Shown: piece after piece, positions 25,668 through 29,031 of the stretch
Layout: each line of letters begins with the position of its first letter
How positions within the stretch are numbered: position 1 is the stretch's first letter
Assembly (NCBI GenBank): GCA_937141935.1
Contig: CAKZQS010000004.1
Coordinates: 222,371-286,370, forward strand
Direction: 5' to 3'
DNA length: 64,000 bases
DNA from: an uncultured Ectothiorhodospiraceae bacterium
GTDB lineage: Bacteria; Pseudomonadota; Gammaproteobacteria; Nevskiales; Oceanococcaceae
Position numbers and translations under genes: made by a program
Notes under the pieces: model-generated
Database searches by the model: none
Told to the model about the DNA's origin: nothing
What the model saw: the letters and a program-made list of their open reading frames with translations, nothing else

Positions 25668-27638
25668 ATGGATCGTCAAAGCCAGAAGGGCCGCGAGCGC
25701 CTGTCGCGCAGCGCAAGCCCGCATCTCAACGAATTGCTCGAGCATCAGGTTTCGCGGCGCAGCGCGCTGCGGGGTGGCCTGGGCCTGGCCAGCAGCACCT
25801 TTTTTGCCGGCGCCGGGGTCAGCGCGCTGAGCGCCTGCTCGGAAAGCGACGGCGTCGCGCCGCTGGAGCTCAAATTCCAGAGCGTGGCCGGCTCCGATGC
25901 GCCCGACCTGCTGCGCGTGCCCGCCGGCTACATCACCGAAATCCTGGCCCCCTGGGGCACGCCGCTGCTCAGCGGTGCGCCGGCCTATGCCGGCGACGGC
26001 AGCAACACGGCGGCCGACCAGGCGCAGCAGGTGGGTACCAACCACGACGGCATGCACTACTTTCCGATCGAGGGCAGCCGCCGGGGCCTGCTGGTGGTCA
26101 ACCACGAGTACACCAACGGCACGCTGTTCGCCGGTGATGGTCGCCAGGAAGACGCCACCGGTGCGCCCACCGACGTCGACGAAGTGCGCAAGGACATCAA
26201 CGCGCATGGCCTGTCGGTGATGGAAATCGTGCGCGGCGATGATGGCCGCGTCAGCCTGGTGGCCGGCAGCCCCTTCAACCGCCGCATTACCGCGGCGACG
26301 CCAATGGCCATCTCCGGCCCGGCCGCCGGCGACGCCAAGCTGCGCACGCCCTTCAGCCCCACCGGCACCCGCACCCGCGGCACGGTGAACAACTGCGCCT
26401 ATGGCTCGACGCCGTGGAATACCTATCTCGCCTGCGAGGAGAACATCCAGGGCTACTTCATCACCAACGATGCCAACCCGCCGCGCGAAACCGCGCGCAT
26501 GGGCATCAACGCCGACGGCTTTGGCTACAAGTGGAGCAACGTGGCCGGCGACGCCAGCGAGGACAATGGCGAATTCGCCCGCTGGAACGTCAGCCAGACG
26601 GGCGCCAGCGCGCTGGACGACTGGCGCAACGAGGCCAACACCTTCGGCTGGATCGTCGAGGTCGACCCCACCGACCCGACCTCGACCCCGGTCAAGCGCA
26701 CGGCCATGGGCCGCATGCGCCACGAGGGCTGCCAGCCGGGCCGCGTGCGCAATGGCGAAAAGGTCGCGTTCTATATGGGCGACGACGCGCGTTTCGAATA
26801 CTTCTACAAGTTCGTGACCGCCGACGCCTACAACGCCAACGGCAACAACGCCGACATGCTCGACCGCGGCACGCTGTACGTGGCCCAGTTCAACGCCGAT
26901 GGCACGGGCCAGTGGCTGCCGCTGGACTATGCCAACAACGCCGCGCTGGCCAATGATTTCAGCAGCCAGGCCGACGTGCTGGTCAACACCCGCAGCGCCG
27001 CCGACACGCTCGGCGCCACGCCGATGGACCGCCCGGAGTGGTCGACCACCGACCCGCTGACCGGCGAGGTGTACCTGACGCTGACCAACAACACCCGCCG
27101 CGAGGCCGGCCAGGAGAATGCGCCGAACCCGCGGGCCTCCAACTCGCACGGCCATGTCATCCGCATCGCCGAAAACGGCGACGACCCGGCGGCCACGAGC
27201 TTCACCTGGGACATCTTCGTGTTCGGCTCGGCGGCCAGCGCCGACCCCAGCTTCAACATCTCGGGGCTGGATGCCAACAACGAGTTCGGCAGCCCGGACG
27301 GCATCTGGTTCGACCCGCGTGGCGTGCTGTGGATCCAGACCGACAACGGCGCCCCGCTGGACTATGGCGATGACCCCAACGACCAGATGCTGGCGGTGAT
27401 TCCGGCCCGCCTGGACGGCGAACGTGTCATTCGCCCGGACAACCAGGCCCAGCTCAAGCGCTTCTTCGTGGGCCCGGCCGGCTGCGAGGTCACGGGCATC
27501 CAGATGACGCCGGACTACAAGACGATGTTCGTCAACATCCAGCACCCCGGCGGCAGCTGGCCGGCCAACGATGGCGTTTCGCGTCCGCGTTCGGCCACGG
27601 TGGTCATCCGCCGCGAGGATGGCGACGAGATCCTCTAG
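25668..27638 (+). CDS. PhoX family phosphatase with Tat-like signal
   Basis: SRRSALRGGLGLASS twin-arginine motif; YFPIEGSRRGLLVVNHEYTN, NGEKVAFYMGDD; DUF839/PhoX pattern. Confidence 0.9.
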   Translation: MDRQSQKGRERLSRSASPHLNELLEHQVSRRSALRGGLGLASSTFFAGAGVSALSACSESDGVAPLELKFQSVAGSDAPDLLRVPAGYITEILAPWGTPLLSGAPAYAGDGSNTAADQAQQVGTNHDGMHYFPIEGSRRGLLVVNHEYTNGTLFAGDGRQEDATGAPTDVDEVRKDINAHGLSVMEIVRGDDGRVSLVAGSPFNRRITAATPMAISGPAAGDAKLRTPFSPTGTRTRGTVNNCAYGSTPWNTYLACEENIQGYFITNDANPPRETARMGINADGFGYKWSNVAGDASEDNGEFARWNVSQTGASALDDWRNEANTFGWIVEVDPTDPTSTPVKRTAMGRMRHEGCQPGRVRNGEKVAFYMGDDARFEYFYKFVTADAYNANGNNADMLDRGTLYVAQFNADGTGQWLPLDYANNAALANDFSSQADVLVNTRSAADTLGATPMDRPEWSTTDPLTGEVYLTLTNNTRREAGQENAPNPRASNSHGHVIRIAENGDDPAATSFTWDIFVFGSAASADPSFNISGLDANNEFGSPDGIWFDPRGVLWIQTDNGAPLDYGDDPNDQMLAVIPARLDGERVIRPDNQAQLKRFFVGPAGCEVTGIQMTPDYKTMFVNIQHPGGSWPANDGVSRPRSATVVIRREDGDEIL

Positions 27639-27660
27639 CTCGTCTGTACAAGCACTGCAA

Positions 27661-27686
27661 AGCCCCGCAATGCGGGGCTTTTTTTA
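27661..27686 (+). terminator. Rho-independent terminator
   Basis: AGCCCCGC-AAT-GCGGGGCT followed by T-tract. Confidence 0.9.
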
Positions 27687-27799
27687 TGCGCGAGCGAACG
27701 CTGAAAGGGGCGTAGGCGTAGGTGCAGGTTGCACAGTGAAACGGGCGGATAACCGCAGCAGCAATAGCAGTCAGCGTCGGCGCGACTGCGGCCGGCCTT

Positions 27800-28345
27800 T
27801 GCCCTCCGCCGGCTGCGCACTCGCCGCTGCGCGCTGCCCTCCCGCCGGCAGGGCGGAGGCCGCTGCCCTCGAGGGCCCAGGCCTGCACCACTCCGGGCGG
27901 CTCTTGCGCCGCTACGCGGTCCCCGGCTGCCCGTCAGGCTTGGTGGGGCCGGCCTGAGGGGGCGTCCATGCCCCCACAGGCCTCAATCCGCCGTCCGGGC
28001 GGATTGACCCCAGTCACCTGCCGGTCATCCGGCGCAAGGCCTGACAGCCCGGAGCAGTGCAGCCCTGCGCCATTGGCAGTGGTGGAGGGGCTGGTCCTTC
28101 CGCCCTCGTTTACAGGCAGAAGCCGTGCGCCGCGCGGAGGTTGACCGGTGGCGGGGGCTGGGGCTGTGGGGGCGGCATTAGGCGTGCTCGCCGGACGGCG
28201 GTGCGGCGAATGGGGTCAAGCGGCCCGGACGGCCGCTTGAGGCCCGCTCAGGCAGGACGCCTGATCGGGCCGGCCCCACCGAGCCGCGCCGACGGGAGGG
28301 AACCGCGCAGCGGCGAGTGCGTAGCCGCATTCACAGCCCCAGCCC
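27800..28345. repeat. Inverted/tandem copies of a multi-hairpin element with conserved GGA(C) loops
   Basis: Arms 27907-28033 and 28189-28315 align as inverted copies with position sum ~56222 throughout; third partial copy about 27800-27900; see findings. Confidence 0.7.
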
Positions 28346-28404
28346 CCGCCGCCATCGCGGCGGACGTGCCGCTAAGGCGGCATTGGCGCCGAATCCTGCG
28401 GCGC

Positions 28405-29031
28405 TTAAACCTTCGTGACCCGCAGGTAGGGCCGCACTTCATCCCAGCCTTGGGGGAACAGGTCGCGGGCCTGCTCGTTGGCGATGCTGGGGGGGATGAT
28501 CACCTTGTCGCCGGGCTTCCAGTCGGCCGGCGTGGCGACCTTGTGCGCATCGCCGAGTTGCAGCGCGTCGATGACCCGCAGGATTTCGGTGAAGTTGCGG
28601 CCCACGCTCATCGGGTAGGTCAGCGTCAGCCGAATCTTCTTGTTCGGGTCGATGATGAAGACCGAGCGCACCGTCGCGGTTTCGCTCTCGCCCGGGTGCA
28701 GCATGCCGTAGGTGCGGGCGATCTCCAGCTCCTTGTCGGCCACAATCGGGAACTTCAGCGTGGTGTTTTGCGTGGCGTTGACGTCCTCGATCCAGCGCAG
28801 GTGCGAGTCCACGCTGTCGGTCGAAAGACCCAGCGGCTTGACCTTGCGCGCGGCGAATTCGTCGGCCAGCTGCGCCGTGCGGCCCAGCTCCGTGGTGCAC
28901 ACCGGTGTGAAATCGGCCGGGTGGCTGAAGAAGAACACCCAGGAATCGCCGGCCCAGGTGTGAAAGTCGATCTCGCCCTCGGTGGTGGCGATCTGGAAAT
29001 TGGGGGCGGTGTCGCCCAGACGCAGTGACAT
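28405..29031 (-). CDS. 1-Cys peroxiredoxin (Prx6 family)
   Basis: HPADFTPVCTTELG active site; LRLTLTYPMSVGRNFTEILRVIDALQ. Confidence 0.93.
   Translation of the reverse strand: MSLRLGDTAPNFQIATTEGEIDFHTWAGDSWVFFFSHPADFTPVCTTELGRTAQLADEFAARKVKPLGLSTDSVDSHLRWIEDVNATQNTTLKFPIVADKELEIARTYGMLHPGESETATVRSVFIIDPNKKIRLTLTYPMSVGRNFTEILRVIDALQLGDAHKVATPADWKPGDKVIIPPSIANEQARDLFPQGWDEVRPYLRVTKV

Follow-up and report, generated by a model that had tools for sequence, protein, structure and literature searches.

Among the described systems, the closest to the element reported here is TwoAYGGAY (Rfam RF01731), a motif of clan CL00106, which it shares with RsmY; its gathering cut-off is 43 bits. First reported in 2010 as a candidate RNA, TwoAYGGAY was judged to be probably not cis-regulatory (PMC2864571), unlike the type that it carries in Rfam, which is cis-regulatory, and it is predicted to bind CsrA (PMC4333381). 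The CsrA site itself has been described by SELEX as RUACARGGAUGU, in which the upstream AC is paired with the downstream GU, and by NMR, for CsrA/RsmE, as an ANGGAN loop; most of the SELEX hairpins contain no more than 4 contiguous pairs, and a single CsrA dimer bridges sites that lie 10-63 nt apart (reviewed in PMC7652899). The sRNAs CsrB/CsrC and RsmX/Y/Z are the products of single or few promoter-driven genes and present many (often 9-25) GGA motifs. The elements studied here resemble them in their repeated GGA loops, the A(N)GGA consensus and the C-G closing pair, whereas in comparison with CsrB/RsmZ they hold 2-3 GGA motifs per unit, occur as many units and lack an evident promoter or terminator. 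The Pseudoalteromonas Csr sRNAs Pf1-Pf3 were considered as relatives and set aside as a different kind of RNA, since they contain 9-25 GGA motifs and are predicted to have promoters and terminators. REPs, finally, are single hairpins of ~20-40 nt that are tied to RAYT (Y1) proteins. Like REP and BIME sequences, our elements are short, intergenic, dispersed palindromic units without coding capacity, and they occur as two subtypes placed head-to-head; unlike REPs, they are ~190-210 nt long and multibranched, and their own genome is without a Y1_Tnp protein.

The window, i.e. the whole 64 kb stretch of DNA that was analysed, contains between phoX (plus strand) and a 1-Cys peroxiredoxin gene (minus strand; Pfam) what is, judged by its sequence, a single heterodimer, arranged head-to-head, of a dispersed, TwoAYGGAY-related repeat with a conserved structure (Table 1). 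The earlier note had described this region as an inverted pair of multi-hairpin copies, and the pair was recovered: once reverse-complemented, 27907-28033 can be aligned with 28189-28315 over its full length, the one gap being a single base in loop c, and the alignment scores 56, compared with 6 for the best of 500 shuffles, and a repeat search places the complementarity of the arms at 75-79%. Hairpin b, with the loop CGGAC in both arms, and hairpin c, whose loop on the GGA strand reads ATGGAC in the left and AGGAC in the right arm, are both real, and both arms contain the shared GGCCGGCCCCACC block and the G(G/A)ACCGCG(T/C)AGCGGCG end that the note had listed. The hairpin that it had called (a) proved to be a local coincidence, as its bases sit in long-range helices in the fold predicted for each of the nine copies of this genome, CGCC pairing with GGCG ~120 nt downstream and the next bases forming helix P2. 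A covariance model, R1, built from an alignment of 13 sequences, detected both arms in the 64 kb window at the scores given in Table 1, everything else remaining at 18 bits or below. The outer stem of the right element, made of 28147-28176 and 28324-28353, is 87% complementary. A further 45-nt arm (27810-27854), which is 87% complementary to 28283-28327, belongs to a third, truncated copy that adjoins the pair and is probably a remnant. The spacer letters are not alike in the two inverted pairs of this genome.

Table 1. Features of the head-to-head pair and its surroundings, in window positions.
Feature	Position	Strand	Evidence or remark
Intrinsic terminator of phoX, between phoX and the pair	27659..27681	+	Terminator scan
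Third copy, truncated: 3' end of a subtype A element	~27770..27855	-	Arm complementarity; partial BLAST match
Left element with long outer stem, approximate ends	27878..28071	-	Predicted fold -143.5 kcal/mol for 27860-28075
Left element (C4a) core, subtype B	27903..28038	- (read 28038 to 27903)	R1 135.3 bits; TwoAYGGAY 43.2 bits over 27945-28010
Left conserved 3' end GGACCGCGTAGCGGCG, GNA-type triloop CCGC-GNA-GCGG	27907..27922	-	CGCG-N-AGCGG invariant in 14 copies; helix 7 covaries
Left hairpin c, loop ATGGAC (ANGGA)	27958..27975	-	Helix c 98.3% paired over 92 copies
Left hairpin b, loop CGGAC	27983..28007	-	Helix b 98.9% paired over 92 copies
Spacer between the 5' ends of the head-to-head pair	28034..28188	.	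No promoter-like site; letters unlike those of the second pair of this genome
Right element with outer stem	28147..28353	+	Predicted fold -167.4 kcal/mol for 28140-28365
Right element (C4b) core, subtype A	28185..28319	+	R1 128.2 bits
Right hairpin b, loop CGGAC	28216..28240	+	R1 match and fold
Right hairpin c, loop AGGAC	28249..28263	+	R1 match and fold

The copies share a predicted fold that is multibranched and closed by a long outer stem of 20-30 bp, which encloses helix P2, an adjacent pair of hairpins with GGA loops and a hairpin with a GNA loop. The case for covariation, which had been made from the two arms, is thin on those two copies and becomes very strong on 92. RNAalifold found changes on both sides at 30 of 46 pairs among 14 copies. 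Across 92 distinct copies, 95.8% of the pair cells are paired, as against 64.7% after shuffling, double changes occur at 43 of 44 pairs, and the covariation score is 0.715, compared with 0.174 after shuffling and no more than 0.088 for the slid controls, counts that are inflated by relatedness and by an alignment fitted to the model, with a margin that still lies far past the controls. Covariation of this extent across 92 copies indicates that the fold has been maintained. Furthermore, helix P2 contains 102 G-T cells versus 23 A-C cells, and the GGA strand provides the more stable fold in 41 of 47 copies, which together indicate that the structure is read from the GGA strand.

In five copies of this genome (C4a, C4b, C41a, C41b and C14), the letters of the outer stems are almost unrelated and yet their pairing is nearly perfect, while the cores are 86-90% identical. 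This pattern suggests that compensatory changes arise very rapidly or that template-switch correction is at work, and arm-to-arm correction at the DNA level could contribute to the pairing of the outer stem. Helices b and c are almost wholly Watson-Crick, with 16 G-T in ~1,900 cells. Outer stems that differ almost completely and remain paired, along with the scarcity of G-U intermediates in b and c, are what one would expect of functionless GC-rich inverted repeats that spread passively while template-switch correction preserves the complementarity of their arms. We consider this explanation improbable, because correction between arms does not account for the strand asymmetry of P2 and leaves the conservation of loops and unpaired bases unexplained, including the GGA of loop b (91 of 92 copies) and the CGCG-N-AGCGG sequence (27907-27922 / 28300-28315), which forms a GNA triloop and is invariant in 14 copies from two genera.

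A search for further copies and a covariance model were among the means by which the earlier note had proposed to follow up the pair. BLAST with the right arm returned 9 strong copies in the same genome; R1 found matches in the genomes of many relatives, among them the congener G001 (20), G002 (8) and G003, of a sister genus (10). The copies of the host genome comprise the pair in the window (C4a and C4b), another inverted pair, which lies on contig C41, and singles on C14, C18, C28, C29 and C42, and their cores split into subtype A (C4b, C41a and C14) and subtype B (the remaining copies). In the 12 genomes that were searched closely with R1, copy number ranges from 6 to 30 per genome. R1 matches were present in 32 of 85 genomes of the host's order, in 23 of 387 sampled genomes of its class and in 21 of 399 genomes of a phylum sample, all 21 of the latter falling within the host's class. 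At the peroxiredoxin orthologue of G001, no element was found within the 1.5 kb fetched; phoX is not its neighbor there, making this weak evidence of absence. In one scan of a named collection with a 20-nt pattern of hairpin c, the only hits were contigs from an Oceanococcus MAG and from Afipia, the former sharing its element with contig C27 of G003 and the latter without a covariance model match.

The family had been reported as one that was not recognized. This holds for the right arm, which by itself (28140-28360) gave no TwoAYGGAY match at E values up to 10 and is tied to that motif only through R1, but not for the left arm, which at 43.2 bits passes the cut-off and by the Rfam criterion is a TwoAYGGAY member. 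Five further copies of this genome score 46.2, 44.3 and 43.2 bits, above the cut-off, and 42.4 and 40.4 bits, below it, and distant relatives found via R1 match the whole TwoAYGGAY model, end to end, at up to 62.4 bits. The elements have its architecture, adjacent GGA-loop hairpins under an enclosing stem with support from covariation, and their likeness to TwoAYGGAY extends to the (A)NGGAY loops of the two neighboring hairpins. They differ from it in that the copies of the window match its inner part only (model positions 45-113) and in possessing a GNA hairpin, a long variable outer stem, many dispersed copies and head-to-head pairing. We class the repeat family as a whole as a TwoAYGGAY-related variant.

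The loops and closing C-G pairs of the predicted hairpins fit the published CsrA/RsmA site, and they do so on the GGA strand only. GGA is kept in loop b of 91 and in loop c of 76 of the 92 copies, and 76 of 92 have an ANGGA or AGGA context in loop b, as do 76 of 92 in loop c. Loop b is mostly ANGGAY across the 92 copies, whereas in the host genome most copies have CGGAC there and lack the preferred A. Hairpin c is closed by a C-G pair in all 92 copies and hairpin b in 84, while the adjacent pairs vary freely, the inner stems of b and c existing in 43 and 47 versions, respectively, among the 92. Compared with the SELEX hairpins, the stems of these elements are long. The hairpin GTACAGGGATGTAC, inserted in some copies of genome G049, holds a full match to the SELEX consensus. 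The host genome encodes csrA, which is present in all but one of 25 genomes that carry the element (24 of 25), the one without it being 86% complete; since csrA is common in the host's class, its presence says little and serves as a consistency check, not as proof. Our preferred reading, to which we assign a probability of about 0.5, is that of a dispersed, non-autonomous repeat in which transcription of the GGA strand would expose two sites for CsrA ~30 nt apart, a distance within the 10-63 nt range for bridging. Loop c reads ACGA in 16 of the 92 copies, from several families, indicating that two sites are not always retained. The copies with this loop form a subtype found in G001, G002, G191, G324 and G418 (e.g. 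L158, L159, L167, L094, L142 and L113), in which the stem of hairpin c still covaries and loop b is still GGA.

Repeated GGA hairpins in intergenic DNA, in a family whose nearest relative shares clan CL00106 with RsmY, might also represent several duplicates of an ordinary sRNA gene of the CsrB/RsmY/Z type, every one of them having a promoter and a terminator to itself. This seems highly improbable to us. A consensus scan of 27600-28450 revealed neither a promoter-like site nor a terminator on the elements, and no upstream sequence is conserved among the copies. Moreover, the stem of C14 begins ~27 nt past an intrinsic terminator, leaving hardly any space for a promoter, and there are up to 30 copies per genome. 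The lack of a promoter and terminator and the position of C14 argue against a dedicated sRNA gene; the latter also implies that transcripts may rarely reach such copies.

New here is the dispersed family, in which close neighbors are arranged head-to-head and are of different subtypes, as in BIMEs. Among 180 listed copies, a non-random sample in which some genomes were included for their pairs, 33 cases of neighbors within 500 nt were found, 32 of them head-to-head and one tail-to-tail, with no two neighbors pointing the same way. When trees are built from the cores, the partners of a pair separate into different clades, and equivalent halves from different pairs group together, which suggests that the heterodimer itself spreads, like a BIME composed of two REP subtypes. 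In genome G324, whole pairs can be aligned between sites over ~600-700 nt.

This arrangement brings forward a serious rival, in our estimate possible though short of likely, in which the element acts at the DNA level as a REP/BIME- or MITE-like repeat, its single-stranded hairpin or cruciform being recognized by a transposase or nucleoid protein and its GGA loops being unrelated to CsrA. The many intergenic copies in the form of head-to-head heterodimers favor it, and so do the sites that they occupy: 6 of 7 in the host genome lie between convergent genes, several copies lie between terminators, and orientation relative to flanking tandem genes in G001 looks random (3 sense, 4 antisense), although these gene calls are crude codon-composition heuristics, inconsistent at some sites and good for trends only. 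Random orientation in G001 also counts against a cis role in mRNA. The nearly pure Watson-Crick pairing of helices b and c would fit arm-to-arm correction of DNA as well, and GNA triloops are very stable in DNA. On the other hand, the loops and closing pairs closely fit a CsrA site on one strand only, which argues against a pure DNA element, and extra hairpins matching the consensus have been gained in G049. In addition, Y1 transposase (PF01797) is absent from the host genome (G000), in spite of its 9 copies, and from G002, in spite of its 8; RAYT mobilization is thereby ruled out for the host genome, and no mobilizing enzyme for the repeats was identified.

Sequence comparison thus establishes a common predicted fold, dispersal, head-to-head pairs of two subtypes and loops that resemble CsrA sites. 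Under the preferred reading of a repeat with CsrA sites, copies that spread without a gene of their own would constitute a non-autonomous mobile element mobilized in trans, with the inverted dimer as one unit of dispersal. If the GGA strand is transcribed, its two hairpins could each bind one face of the same CsrA dimer, and a transcribed copy would then be a small CsrA decoy or a CsrA-responsive module in its host RNA. We tentatively propose, as an extension that we consider rather unlikely in its full form, that Gammaproteobacteria harbor dispersed mobile inverted heterodimers whose payload is a pair of CsrA-binding hairpins and whose copy number directly tunes the free pool of CsrA, a global translational regulator, amounting to a repeat-borne sponge. 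If this is true, a global regulatory circuit would include intergenic repeats that are usually deemed junk; if the ligand is not CsrA, the strand-specific GGA loops would point to an as yet unknown protein that reads folded DNA. The view of TwoAYGGAY as a dispersed, head-to-head repeat joins the fields of CsrA decoy RNAs and REP/BIME-like repeats.

Genome G049 contains additional forms of the repeat. Four of its copies (L117, L121, L127 and L130) carry an insert with two extra GGA hairpins, one of which is GTACAGGGATGTAC. Its repeats of ~0.7-1 kb share a sharp 5' border, GTAACTACTCAG, beyond which the sequence is unrelated, and several end in CTGAGTAGTTAC; no open reading frame of their own stood out in them. 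L170-L179 are composite repeats with GTAACTACTCAG...CTGAGTAGTTAC ends and a second, oppositely oriented GGA-hairpin element, and are MITE-like in appearance. Identity with an integron attC site (R' GTTRRRY, R'' RYYYAAC) was rejected: some copies have a GTTAGG(C)-like 5' side, with no RYYYAAC partner.

In several other families, a tail hairpin, TTTGGTTACTTTTCTTTGG...CAAAGAAAAGTAACC, is located 3' of the element; the copies in the window are without it. Tail-bearing records from Pseudoalteromonas and Aeromonas score 51.3 and 41.5 bits, respectively, with TwoAYGGAY. A literature search found no mention of the letters of this hairpin. The same tail, with no double GGA hairpin detected, is present in the Burkholderia sRNA Bp1_684 (RF02421) and at no fewer than 40 places on Paraburkholderia megaplasmids, so that the TTTGGTTACTTTTCTTTGG tail is common to TwoAYGGAY repeats, Bp1_684 and the Paraburkholderia repeats (L224-L228, L091-L111).
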